In this document: one piece after another, positions 1,858-19,017 of the stretch
How the letters are laid out: every line of letters begins with the position of its first letter
Numbering within the stretch: the stretch's first letter is position 1
NCBI GenBank assembly: GCA_003209955.1
Contig: QCOD01000010.1
Location: 1-38,762 of the forward strand
Origin: OCS116 cluster bacterium AG-430-B22
GTDB lineage: Bacteria; Pseudomonadota; Alphaproteobacteria; MED-G09
DNA: 38,762 bases
Reading direction: 5' to 3'
Program-made: the position numbers and the translations under genes
The notes under the pieces: generated by a model
Told to the model about the DNA's origin: nothing
The model's input: only the letters and a program-made list of their open reading frames with translations
Database searches by the model: none

Positions 1858-4503
1858 ATGTCTAAATTCAATTACTTATTGTTGTTTCTTTTAATCATTT
1901 CTTTAAATAATGTTTTTGCTCAAGAAGTTGAGTCAGATAGCAGTATTGAAGAAATTGTTGTTACGGGTTCATATTTAAAAACGAGTCCAAGAGATGGCGC
2001 TTCACCTATTGATATAATTGATAGAGACGCGATAGAAAACTTTGGAGCAAATACTGTTGCTGACTTAGTCAGGAACTTAGCCTCAAATAGTGGTTCAGAA
2101 AATGTACCAGATTCATTTACATCCGGTTCAACGCAAGGAACCTCAAATATAAACTTACGCGGTTTAGGCCTATCTTCAACATTGGTATTAATTGATGGAA
2201 GAAGACAAACTGTTGCAGGAGCTACAGCTAATGATGGTAGTGTTTTTGTAAATACTTCAATTATTCCACTAATTGCTATTGAGAGAGTAGAAGTTTTAAA
2301 AGAGGGTGCAGCATCCGTATATGGTTCTGATGCTGTAGCTGGTGTTGTAAATTATATATTCAGAAGAGATTTTAGTGGTTTAGAAGTTAGCTACAATCAT
2401 CAATTTACAGATATTGGTAGTCAAGAAGATGATAGGGTAAGCGTTATTTTCGGTGAAAAATTTGGAAATACAAATTTAGTAATTGCTGCTGACTTTCTTG
2501 AGCGTTCTCCTTTGTCTAGTGCGCTGAGACCAGAGTCAACTCAATTAGGTATAAGTGGATTAGGAAATAGTTTTTTATTATTTGGTCCATCAACAGTTGA
2601 GTCAGGCCCATATGCAGGAAGTTATTCTCCATTTACTAATGTTCCAGATGCAAATTGTGTAGAGAATAATGGCTTTATTATACCTCAAGCAAGCGGTTCT
2701 AGATGTGGTTTCTTATATGGTCCAAGATTTAATATAGTAAATGATGAAGAACATCAGAATGTTTATGGTTCTATCAAAAGTGATTTAGCTAATGGAATGG
2801 AATTTAATGCTGATGTTTTATTTTCAAGTATTAAGGTTAATGATAATCCTCAGTCACCTTCCTATCCTGCTCTATCTTATTTAAGTCCATCTAACGCGAT
2901 ATTACCTGGACAAGGCGGAAATCCATTCGGTGTTCCAGTTCTATGGCTTGGAAGACCTCTTGGTTCTGCATTTCCATCACCAAACGCGCCAAGAGATATT
3001 GATAATTTGAGATTTTCTGTAGGGTTAACTGGTGATCTTGGAGGTTTCGATTGGGACCTAAGATATACTCACAGTGAGACAGATCATTATTTTTATCAAC
3101 CTGATACAAGTACAACAAGATTTAGTGCAGCTATTGCTGGACAGGGCGGTACAAGTGGAACAGAAAGTTGGAATTTATTCGATCCTTCTGCTAACTCGGC
3201 TTCATTAAGAGAATGGATTTCTACAGCTCAAGAAACATGGTCAGAAAATGAATTAGATGTAGTTGATCTTGTTTTTTCAGGAGAAATTGGATCTACTGCT
3301 GCAGGCAATATAGATATAGCTTTTGGTCTTCAGTATAGAGAGGAGGCTTTTGATCTTAAAAGAGATAAAGGCTCTATAGTAGAATTTGATTCTGAAGGAA
3401 ACTTAGTTAAACCTGCTGACTTACTTTTCTTAGGTGGTGGCTCGGAGTCAAGCGCAAGTAGAGATGCAATTGCTCTATTTGCTGAAGTATCTGTTCCTGT
3501 AACAGATAAACTACAAGTTAATGGTGCGGTAAGATATGAGGAACTTGAGGATGATAGTACATTTGATCCTAAAATTTCACTACGCTACGAAGTGTCTGAT
3601 AGTTTAATATTAAGGGCATCTGCAAGTACATCATTCAGAGAAGCATCCTTATCGCAACTTTATTCAAGTGGTGTTGGTTTACAAGGAATTCAGGATTTTA
3701 CTACAGATGGAACTCCAAAAGGAGGGACAACCTTTATTCGTATAGCTCAAGATGGAAATCCTAATTTATCTCCAGAAGAGTCCGATAACTTGAATATAGG
3801 TGCTATATGGAGACCACAGTCAGATCTAGAAATAAAATTAGATTATTGGTCAATCGATTATAGTGATGTTATTACAATTGAAAGTGCTCAAGGCATTGTT
3901 GCGGCCACTCCTCTTGCTCCAGCAGTAAAGAGGACTATTGATGGAACACTAATAGGTGTAACAACAGGATACTTTAACGCTTCTAATGTGAAAACTGACG
4001 GCATTGATTTTGAGGTTAACTACTCTTTTGATACTAGTTTTGGTGATGTAGAGCTTGGTCTTAGTGGTTCTCATATGAATAAATATGAAATACCTAATGC
4101 TAAAGGCGAAACACAGGATGTTGTTGGATTATTTAACCACGATAATTTTGCCAGATCTCTACCAGAGACAAAAATGACTTTATCGGCTGTTCTTAACAGT
4201 GGACCTCATAAGTTAGCTTTATATGGCAAGCACATATCAGATTATAAAACTACAAGAGCATTATCTGATACGGCCAAATCAAGAGGATACACACAGAAAA
4301 TTGATGAGTGGTTCAGTGTTGATCTTCAATACAATTATACTTTCGATATGGATGATAACCAAATTCGTTTAACTCTGGGTGGTATTAATATTCTTGATGA
4401 AGATGCTCCACTTGTATTTGATGCAGCTAACTTTAGTTATGATTCACGACAGCATGATATAAGAGGTAGAATAATGTATGTTGGGATTAAGCTAATTAGA
4501 TAA
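1858..4503 (+). CDS. TonB-dependent outer-membrane receptor
   Basis: Outer-membrane active transporter of 881 residues powered by TonB-ExbBD. A signal peptide (MSKFNYLLLFLLIISLNNVFA) is followed by a TonB-box-like EEIVVTGS. The plug spans ~45-160, with NLRGLGLSSTLVLIDGRR and VEVLKEGAASVYGSDAVAG, and the rest is a long beta-barrel. The C-terminus is GIKLIR, lacking the terminal aromatic residue common in outer-membrane beta-barrels and present in the second receptor in this window. A strong ribosome binding site (GGGGAG) precedes the ATG. The gene follows bolA by 47 nt and converges on the CorC gene with only 3 nt between stops. No substrate-specific neighbour is present, so the ligand is unknown. 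Confidence 0.92.
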   Translation: MSKFNYLLLFLLIISLNNVFAQEVESDSSIEEIVVTGSYLKTSPRDGASPIDIIDRDAIENFGANTVADLVRNLASNSGSENVPDSFTSGSTQGTSNINLRGLGLSSTLVLIDGRRQTVAGATANDGSVFVNTSIIPLIAIERVEVLKEGAASVYGSDAVAGVVNYIFRRDFSGLEVSYNHQFTDIGSQEDDRVSVIFGEKFGNTNLVIAADFLERSPLSSALRPESTQLGISGLGNSFLLFGPSTVESGPYAGSYSPFTNVPDANCVENNGFIIPQASGSRCGFLYGPRFNIVNDEEHQNVYGSIKSDLANGMEFNADVLFSSIKVNDNPQSPSYPALSYLSPSNAILPGQGGNPFGVPVLWLGRPLGSAFPSPNAPRDIDNLRFSVGLTGDLGGFDWDLRYTHSETDHYFYQPDTSTTRFSAAIAGQGGTSGTESWNLFDPSANSASLREWISTAQETWSENELDVVDLVFSGEIGSTAAGNIDIAFGLQYREEAFDLKRDKGSIVEFDSEGNLVKPADLLFLGGGSESSASRDAIALFAEVSVPVTDKLQVNGAVRYEELEDDSTFDPKISLRYEVSDSLILRASASTSFREASLSQLYSSGVGLQGIQDFTTDGTPKGGTTFIRIAQDGNPNLSPEESDNLNIGAIWRPQSDLEIKLDYWSIDYSDVITIESAQGIVAATPLAPAVKRTIDGTLIGVTTGYFNASNVKTDGIDFEVNYSFDTSFGDVELGLSGSHMNKYEIPNAKGETQDVVGLFNHDNFARSLPETKMTLSAVLNSGPHKLALYGKHISDYKTTRALSDTAKSRGYTQKIDEWFSVDLQYNYTFDMDDNQIRLTLGGINILDEDAPLVFDAANFSYDSRQHDIRGRIMYVGIKLIR

Positions 4504-17138: not shown

Positions 17139-17173
17139 GCTTATTAGTTAGTATTTTTTTATTGAATAATTAT

Positions 17174-17195
17174 TTGAATAGTGTACATTATTCAA
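17174..17195. promoter_or_regulatory. 22-bp palindrome upstream of umuDC, candidate SOS operator
   Basis: The half TTGAATA is followed by eight bases GTGTACAT and then TATTCAA, the exact reverse complement of the first half. Including the centre, 10 of 11 position pairs are complementary. It lies about 31 nt before the preferred umuD start, overlapping the likely promoter. The direct-repeat GTTC-N7-GTTC box known for alphaproteobacterial LexA was not seen here. Assignment to LexA is inference from the gene it precedes. Confidence 0.5.
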
Positions 17196-17225
17196 AATAA
17201 TCTAATTATTTATAAAAGGAGAGAA

Positions 17226-17747
17226 GTGGCATTGCCAAGAGGAGGAGCAAGAACTGGAGCAGGTAGGCCTAAGGGACAAGGCAAATTTGGAGAAAAAACT
17301 AAACCAATACGTATTCCTATTAGCAAAATCGAAAGTGTTATGAATTTTATTAACAACAGCAATATATCTCTTCCGTTATATAGCAGTAAGGTTCCAGCAG
17401 GGTTTCCTTCTCCTGCTGATGATCATATGGAGGGTAAACTAGACTTAAATACACACCTTGTGAAACACCCTACAGCAACATTTTTTGTAAAAGCATCTGG
17501 CGATTCTATGTTGGGGGCAGGTATACATGATGGAGACATCCTTGTTGTTGATCGTAGTCTTGAGCCACGAAAAGGAAAGGTTGTGATTGCAGCTGTTGAT
17601 GGGCAATTAACAGTGAAACGTCTACAAAAAAAGGGATCAAAAACTTTTCTAGTTCCAGAAAATAAAAAATTTCGTTCGATAGAGTTAAACGAGAATAATG
17701 ATGTGAAGATTTGGGGTGTTGTGACTAATGTCATCCACAAAGTCTAA
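17226..17747 (+). CDS. umuD: UmuD-like self-cleaving polymerase V subunit
   Basis: S24-family autoprotease subunit of translesion polymerase V. Starting at GTG 17226, preceded by a strong AAGGAGAG, the protein has 173 residues. The frame also opens at a GTG at 17181, but that lies inside the operator palindrome. The cleavage site is A58-G59 (VPAGFPSPA). Catalytic S94 (ASGDSM) and K131 (LTVKRL) are present, with site-to-Ser 36 and Ser-to-Lys 37 residues, exactly the E. coli UmuD spacings. An extra basic N-terminal arm of about 30 residues (GGARTGAGRPKGQGKFGE) is absent from E. coli UmuD. The stop overlaps umuC by 20 nt. RecA-triggered cleavage is expected after DNA damage. Confidence 0.92.
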   Translation: MALPRGGARTGAGRPKGQGKFGEKTKPIRIPISKIESVMNFINNSNISLPLYSSKVPAGFPSPADDHMEGKLDLNTHLVKHPTATFFVKASGDSMLGAGIHDGDILVVDRSLEPRKGKVVIAAVDGQLTVKRLQKKGSKTFLVPENKKFRSIELNENNDVKIWGVVTNVIHKV

Positions 17748-19017
17748 CGATAAAAATATTTTTGCTTTGGTGGACTGTAATAATTTTTATGTTTCATGTG
17801 AGCGCGTTTTTAATCCATTTTTAGTAAATCAACCAATTGTTGTATTATCAAATAATGATGGGTGTATAATTGCTAGGTCAAATGAAGTAAAAGCTTTAGG
17901 AATTCCTATGGGTGCGCCGTTTCATCATTATCAACACACATTATTACAAAAAGGTGTTCAAATATTTTCTTCGAACTATCAACTATATGGCGACATGTCA
18001 GGAAGAGTAATGGACTCTCTAAAAATATTTAGTCCAGATGTTGAGGTCTATTCAATTGATGAAGCATTCGTAAAATTCAAATATTCTAATAGAAGAAATT
18101 ATTATGAATATCTGAAAACTATCAAAAATAGTATTTTTAAATGGACTGGTATCCCAGTCTCAGTCGGTTTAGGGCCAACAAAGACATTGGCTAAGATAGC
18201 TAATTCTTTAGCCAAAAAATCAAAAATTGAACATATTTACGATCTTAGTTCCCCATCAACCCAGATTGAGGTACTTGAAAATATTCAGGTGGAGAATATT
18301 TGGGGTATATCAAAGAGATGGGGGGCTAAGTTAAGACTTATAGGTATAGGTAATGCTTTGCAATTACGAAATGCCTCGCCTCAAAAGATTCGGAAATATT
18401 TAGGCGTAGTTTTGGAAAGGATTGTTTACGAATTAAGGGGTGTACCTTGTTTAGACCTTGAACAAATACAGTCACGCAAAAACATAATGGTTTCTAGAAG
18501 TTTTGGAAATCCCATTAACAATTTAACTGATCTAGAGCAGGCTATATCACTTTATGTGTCCAGGGCTTGTGAGAAAATGCGTTCACAAAATAGTAGAGCT
18601 CAAACAATTTATACTTTTTTAAGGACAAATAGCTTTTCTAAAAAAAATAAACAATATAGTGCCGGTATTATGTCGGGTTTTAGTAACCCTTGCAGTGATA
18701 CAGGGCATATTCTTAATCTGGTGAAGAAGAATTTATCGCAGATTTATAAAGAAGGGTACTTATATCATAAAGGAGGAGTAATGCTGGTTGATTTAGTTCC
18801 AAATAATATTCATCAAAGAAATTTATTTGAAAAATATGATTATCAAAGATCAGACTCCCGTATGATTGCGGTGGATAGGATAAATCAAAAATTTGGACCT
18901 GGAACGCTCTTTTACGCTGCAGCAGGTTTGAAAAAGGATGGTGATTGGCAATCAAGAACGCATTACTTGTCACCTAGATATACCACTAAGTGGGGCGAAT
19001 TGCCTCATGCATATTGA
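17728..19017 (+). CDS. umuC: Y-family DNA polymerase V catalytic subunit UmuC
   Basis: Error-prone translesion DNA polymerase of 429 residues. The palm motifs are VDCNNFYVSCERVF at ~15-28 and YSIDEAF with catalytic Asp/Glu near 108-114. The NNDGC segment and GLGPTKTLAKIAN are also conserved. HhH-like and little-finger regions follow. QRNLF near 370 resembles the beta-clamp binding motif. The C-terminal DUF4113-type block ends YTTKWGELPHAY. The ATG lies 20 nt inside umuD, so the subunits are translationally coupled. Expression is probably damage-induced through the palindrome upstream of umuD. Confidence 0.95.
   Translation: MSSTKSNDKNIFALVDCNNFYVSCERVFNPFLVNQPIVVLSNNDGCIIARSNEVKALGIPMGAPFHHYQHTLLQKGVQIFSSNYQLYGDMSGRVMDSLKIFSPDVEVYSIDEAFVKFKYSNRRNYYEYLKTIKNSIFKWTGIPVSVGLGPTKTLAKIANSLAKKSKIEHIYDLSSPSTQIEVLENIQVENIWGISKRWGAKLRLIGIGNALQLRNASPQKIRKYLGVVLERIVYELRGVPCLDLEQIQSRKNIMVSRSFGNPINNLTDLEQAISLYVSRACEKMRSQNSRAQTIYTFLRTNSFSKKNKQYSAGIMSGFSNPCSDTGHILNLVKKNLSQIYKEGYLYHKGGVMLVDLVPNNIHQRNLFEKYDYQRSDSRMIAVDRINQKFGPGTLFYAAAGLKKDGDWQSRTHYLSPRYTTKWGELPHAY

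Follow-up and report, generated by a model that had tools for sequence, protein, structure and literature searches.

Which protein controls the umuDC operon of the marine PS1/OCS116 alphaproteobacteria, a lineage that includes MAGs named 'Rhodobiaceae', and at which site on the DNA does it act? The question is raised by a palindrome located before umuDC in the window analysed here, a stretch of 38,762 nucleotides from OCS116 cluster bacterium AG-430-B22, which an earlier note had read as a non-standard SOS box. LexA is the usual controller of umuDC in related bacteria, and its boxes are GTTC-N7-GTTC in the Alphaproteobacteria, GAAC-N4-GTTC in Firmicutes and CTGT-N8-ACAG in E. coli. The sequence comparisons described below indicate that the palindrome is probably an operator through which an SOS mutagenesis operon regulates itself independently of LexA, and that a long form of UmuD would be the self-cleaving repressor.

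The palindrome occupies positions 17174-17195 (TTGAATAGTGTACATTATTCAA) and has the form TTGAATA-N8-TATTCAA, with TGTACA within the N8 segment and 20 of its 22 bases symmetric. It can be extended to a near-perfect 24-bp palindrome at 17173-17196 (TTTGAATAGTGTACATTATTCAAA, no strand assigned), with TTGA arms, a GTAC centre and 22 of 24 symmetric bases. The site pointed out before umuDC was rightly recognised, and it is both longer than first described and conserved in relatives. The 3' end of the operator is separated by 35 bp from the TTG start codon of umuD at 17232. A promoter-like pair on the forward strand, TTGAAT-16-AATAAT at 17174..17201, overlaps the operator, as a mere consensus match (9 of 12 positions) for which other placements are possible; three promoter-like sites were observed in the region and 0.6 would be expected from shuffles. 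An extra TTGAATA half-site, recognised by eye on the forward strand at 17162..17168, lies 12 bp upstream of the operator; it is also found in the genus loci L015, L016 and L017 and is absent from the rest of the family. No other 24-mer of the window reaches 11 complementary pairs out of 12, yet 53 out of 200 dinucleotide-shuffled versions of it contained one or more 24-mers of equal symmetry. The symmetry of the palindrome is by itself, therefore, weak evidence, and it was dropped as proof of the site. Within the 1.24-Mb genome the exact TTGAATA-N8-TATTCAA has a single occurrence, the operator; two sites with one mismatch exist elsewhere, both devoid of the TGTACA centre, and scanning the genome with the motif disclosed no wider regulon.

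Conservation provides firmer ground. A long umuD of high identity is present in 15 of 18 family genomes, and the motif TTGAATANTGTACANTATTCAA, with up to three mismatches allowed, occurs once per genome in precisely those 15. Neither the motif nor the long umuD was found in the other three, whose absence is soft because these genomes are only 61-83% complete. The palindrome stands upstream of umuD in all 15 family loci, while the adjacent promoter bases and the upstream gene vary, and in one genome (G004) it is a perfect 22-bp palindrome (TTGAATAGTGTACACTATTCAA). GTTC-N7-GTTC was found around the operator in none of the 15. On this comparative evidence it is conservation, unlike symmetry, that proves the palindrome to be a genuine conserved control site.

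The gene following the operator, umuD, extends over 17232..17747 on the forward strand and encodes a long form of UmuD of 171 amino acids with an S24 peptidase domain at residues 48-164, which scores 167.2 bits against the UmuD subfamily model NF007621, above its curated cut-off of 110. An alternative GTG start exists at 17226, and the relative L015 has ATG at the codon corresponding to 17232. The partner gene umuC (17728..19017, forward strand), which codes for a Y-family polymerase with IMS, IMS_C and DUF4113 domains, overlaps the end of umuD, and UmuD is the sole S24, LexA-like, protein encoded by the operon. Self-cleavage is predicted at the Ala56-Gly57 bond (17397..17402, forward strand), where a cut would remove the N-terminal part; both residues and the expected dyad Ser92 and Lys129 are invariant in 41 of 41 aligned sequences. 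The part ahead of the cleavage site is PRGGARTGAGRPKGQGKFGEKTKPIRIP and contains the motif GRPKG; its residues 1-29, MPRGGARTGAGRPKGQGKFGEKTKPIRIP (17232..17318, forward strand), are the proposed DNA-binding part. Residues 9-29, upstream of Ala56-Gly57, are the best conserved stretch of UmuD, with a mean top-residue frequency of 0.84 versus 0.71 for residues 61-171 across the 41 sequences, a conservation that would be hard to attribute to polymerase work alone. The N-terminus has no Pfam match and no recognised DNA-binding fold. In the AlphaFold2 model its only helix comprises residues 30-43, residues 1-29 being mostly of low confidence and lacking regular structure, and the PDB entries matched by the model are UmuD' and LexA, those with low rmsd spanning the S24 domain.

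A scan of GTDB contigs with an alignment of the N-terminal part gave 156 confirmed relatives, and the analysis proceeded with the best 80 of them. These 80 span Alphaproteobacteria, Chloroflexi (SAR202, Dehalococcoidia), Candidatus Actinomarina, a Marinimicrobia MAG, Gammaproteobacteria, Legionella and Planctomycetes, host groups that follow MAG names, which may be wrong. A scoring matrix was made from the three distinct sites of the family only and applied to the 69 loci outside it: 46 of them score at least 12 within 150 bp of umuD, and 42 outscore all 500 shuffles. Both the threshold of 12 and the widening of the upstream limit from 150 to 320 bp, with which 46 of 69 becomes 49 of 69 (60 of 80 overall, among the best 80 of 156), were chosen after seeing the data. 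The 80 loci are unevenly sampled and form 39 clusters at 85% identity, 28 of which have the motif. As a control, the matrix was run on 382,784 bases of the same loci with the 150-bp upstream stretches excluded; there were three matches, all of them 224-309 bp before umuD (L110, L124 and L130). Among 15 representative loci (105 pairs) mean identity is 82% in the operator versus 31-34% in its flanks, and the GTAC centre is identical in all 15.

The motif is missing at threshold 12 from 20 of the 80 loci, including all seven planctomycete loci and the Legionella loci L098 and L102. The last two and the Holosporaceae locus L119 have related sites centred on GTnAC that the matrix missed. The planctomycete loci (L111, L112, L114, L116, L121, L122 and L127) conserve the GRPKG part in the absence of the operator, and may use another site; upstream of umuD in L111 lies an imperfect palindrome of another kind. 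At L029 and L030, two more long-UmuD loci of alphaproteobacteria, the scores are as low as 2.9 and 3.8 and there is no LexA box either; a third such locus outside the family, L028, has no GTTC-N7-GTTC in 246 bp. A Legionella adelaidensis plasmid with long UmuD carries the palindrome ATAATTAGTGTACACTAATTAT, with a score of 16.7. Locus L088, on a contig labelled Alphaproteobacteria, has an operator and umuD of the Actinomarina type, possibly through mis-binning or recent transfer. Run on 398 genomes drawn from the phylum, the N-terminal profile matches two, which indicates that the long form is rare overall: one is the genome under study, and in the other, G522 (locus L205), the motif lies 34 bp upstream of umuD with a score of 23.6.

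The form of UmuD and the type of upstream site go together. At the 80 long-umuD loci GTTC-N7-GTTC, GAAC-N4-GTTC and CTGT-N8-ACAG are all missing within 300 bp of umuD. At 23 loci with short UmuD the motif was never found (best score 7.6) and GTTC-N7-GTTC was present in 21. Nine of the 23 are alphaproteobacterial, seven of these having GTTC-N7-GTTC, and 14 come from viral contigs, where an earlier scan with full UmuD as query had yielded no loci; the viral ones were called short from a match beginning at query residue 31 or later, together with the translations of L206, L211 and L213. This double dissociation, long UmuD with the motif and short UmuD with the LexA box, implies that the operator tracks the form of UmuD and not the host.

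The location of umuC was analysed by tblastn on both strands at the same 80 loci. It lies downstream of umuD in 35, is divergent in 19, is elsewhere in one and was not found in 25. At the 19 divergent loci the motif lies between umuD and umuC, the start of the latter being approximate, as it was extrapolated from the alignment. In the Rickettsiales MAG G160 the two genes are 4 kb apart and have one motif copy each, that of umuC lying 104 bp before its ATG. A related Rickettsiales MAG without a umuC match, G153, has a second exact operator (L176, 1133-1154) at the start of a gene for a DCC1-like thiol-disulfide oxidoreductase, which is a possible extra regulon member. Two Legionella genomes have an unlinked umuC with TTGAATTGTGCTCATAATTCAA-like sites, related in the arms and different in the centre. 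That the operator follows umuC is not general: in gammaproteobacteria with an orphan long umuD the motif is found in seven of eight genomes (one site in six, two in one), but no copy precedes umuC where umuC was found, which counts against generality, and by inspection that umuC is preceded by its own short umuD. In the gammaproteobacterial loci L118, L120, L123, L125 and L132 a lone long umuD, preceded by the variant operator TTGATAAAAGTACATTATTCTA, is followed by rdgC (a Pfam RdgC match for L118, a similar sequence start for the other four), and umuC lies elsewhere in these genomes or was not found. Locus L203 has a photolyase-related gene (Pfam DPRP, 2234-3751) two genes away from long umuD in the same MAG.

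A motif common to hosts of several phyla argues for a binder that travels with the genes, and UmuD is the obvious candidate. From these comparisons we infer that UmuD binds the operator, represses the operon and is released by cleavage. Uncleaved long UmuD dimers would bind the palindrome through the GRPKG-containing N-terminal part and would block the umuDC promoter. Once DNA is damaged, self-cleavage at Ala56-Gly57, triggered by the RecA filament, would strip the N-terminal part, freeing the promoter and yielding UmuD' for UmuC. Since the cleavage would remove the N-terminal part, a single cut could both derepress the operon and make UmuD'. The earlier suggestion of another repressor, possibly UmuD itself, is thus consistent with the results, UmuD being the best-supported candidate binder. 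Covariation with the operator was analysed by a partial Mantel test, in which the N-terminus gave a partial r of 0.22 (36 of 2000 permutations) and the rest of UmuD 0.31 (16 of 2000); the test does not single out the N-terminus over the rest of the protein.

Other binders have to be weighed. The palindrome could be bound by a separate host-encoded regulator, neither UmuD nor LexA, as the N-terminus of UmuD fits no known DNA-binding family and motif and gene could be co-inherited while the regulator is encoded elsewhere. Such a regulator, however, would have to be common to alphaproteobacteria, SAR202/Dehalococcoidia, Ca. Actinomarina and gammaproteobacteria, and the single site in each of the 15 positive family genomes leaves no second one for its own promoter, so that we regard it as unlikely. 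It is likewise improbable, though conceivable, that UmuD binds only with a co-repressor, in the manner of UmuDAb, the self-cleaving UmuD homologue of Acinetobacter, which DdrR assists as co-repressor according to the available part of its description (PMC11332147). The N-terminus of UmuD, predicted to be largely without regular structure, would agree with such help; against it, no conserved small neighbour was seen among the genes listed around 12 loci, bar rdgC in related gammaproteobacteria, the neighbour check across all 80 loci having covered umuC only.

The first idea of the earlier note, a diverged LexA box, has in its favour that umuDC, whose promoter holds the site, is a classical SOS operon, and the statement that GTTC-N7-GTTC is not seen there was borne out by a search of the DNA upstream of umuD. 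Nevertheless, the genome has a single LexA by profile search, whose N-terminus looks, on inspection, like that of an ordinary alphaproteobacterial LexA, and the canonical box GTTCTACTTAAGTTC lies 24 bp before lexA. GTTC-N7-GTTC occurs at six places in the 1.24 Mb, one of them directly before lexA, and recA has a version with one mismatch; the palindrome is absent at lexA and upstream of recA. The DNA before lexA was read in 16 of the 18 family genomes (all but G002 and G016), and every one of the 16 has an exact GTTC-N7-GTTC there. The lineage shows no diverged LexA, and the palindrome is unlike the boxes of Firmicutes (GAAC-N4-GTTC) and E. coli (CTGT-N8-ACAG), neither of which is present in the 300 bp before any of the 80 long umuD genes. 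A non-standard LexA as binder is contradicted by the canonical boxes at lexA and by a LexA of ordinary type, and we consider it highly improbable. Further copies of the motif had been looked for at other SOS genes and before orthologous umuDC operons: the former are lacking in this genome and the latter were found. A motif present at one operon only, yet conserved there, is the pattern expected of a one-operon autorepressor. Finally, a role of the palindrome as a hairpin in RNA or a secondary structure in DNA can be practically dismissed, for although the inverted repeat lies in an AT-rich leader, the bases themselves are kept beyond complementarity (GTAC in all 15 representatives), and the site also separates umuD from a divergent umuC at 19 loci and precedes an unlinked umuC.

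UmuD as proposed repressor shares with alphaproteobacterial LexA the logic of an S24 self-cleaving repressor, but LexA-controlled umuDC has the GTTC-N7-GTTC that is absent at 80 of 80 long umuD genes and 15 of 15 family loci. With E. coli UmuD, the LexA-controlled subunit of polymerase V, it has in common the NF007621 assignment, the Ser-Lys dyad and an overlapping umuC; the E. coli protein lacks the GRPKG part, the alignment with the solved structure beginning at residue 45. The nearest parallel is UmuDAb, as far as the available parts of its descriptions go (PMC11332147, PMC4807011): it is also an S24 UmuD with extra N-terminal residues and an Ala-Gly cleavage site, and its operator, with TTGA/TCAA arms and a GT-AC core, occurs at umuDC genes as well as at the gene for UmuDAb. 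In those parts the UmuDAb operator is a 21-bp TTGA-N13-TCAA with a GTnAC core (PMC11332147), whereas here it is a 22-bp TTGA-N14-TCAA with GTAC; the umuD of an Acinetobacter pittii plasmid, which differs in its N-terminus, has TTGAATACGTTACGTTTTCAA, consistent with the pattern given there. The 59-residue N-terminal addition of UmuDAb is, in the same texts, modelled as three helices, in contrast to a low-confidence GRPKG stretch and one helix here; Acinetobacter lacks LexA, which this genome has; and UmuDAb reportedly has no polymerase accessory function, while here UmuD shares an operon with UmuC. With another operator spacing and core and with LexA in the genome, the protein falls outside the definition of UmuDAb as tested here; the low-confidence model of its N-terminus gave no three-helix domain. 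It is classed as UmuD, with a probable new repressor variant. Bacteroidetes LexA-like repressors and HdiR are, in the accessible text of PMC8565304, likewise S24 peptidases that take over SOS control through other motifs; unlike the present case, the Bacteroidetes ones use CTAA-N5-TTAG or GGA-N5-TCC and are phage-repressor-like proteins and not UmuD, the UmuD homologues of that phylum being reported there as having no DNA-binding domain. The same partial sources report repressors of the UmuD type from one family only, the Moraxellaceae, in which LexA is lacking (PMC8565304, PMC11332147). Among titles and the openings of abstracts, subscription papers being mostly outside this scope, no earlier mention was found of this operator or of a UmuD repressor of the GRPKG type.

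On balance, we favour the wider reading that the operon is a portable, self-contained SOS mutagenesis cassette distributed across phyla, in which UmuD would repress itself through a short GRPKG part of an undescribed family at a TTGA-N5-GTAC-N5-TCAA operator, beside and independently of the host LexA; one cleavage would derepress the operon and activate polymerase V, and UmuDAb would be a local version of a wider tradition of UmuD repressors. The analysis supplies a specific operator sequence and a peptide that may bind DNA, both amenable to in vitro testing. If the reading is correct, the circuit brings its own regulator, which would help to explain its spread across phyla, and the error-prone polymerase V of abundant ocean bacteria would escape LexA control even where LexA exists.
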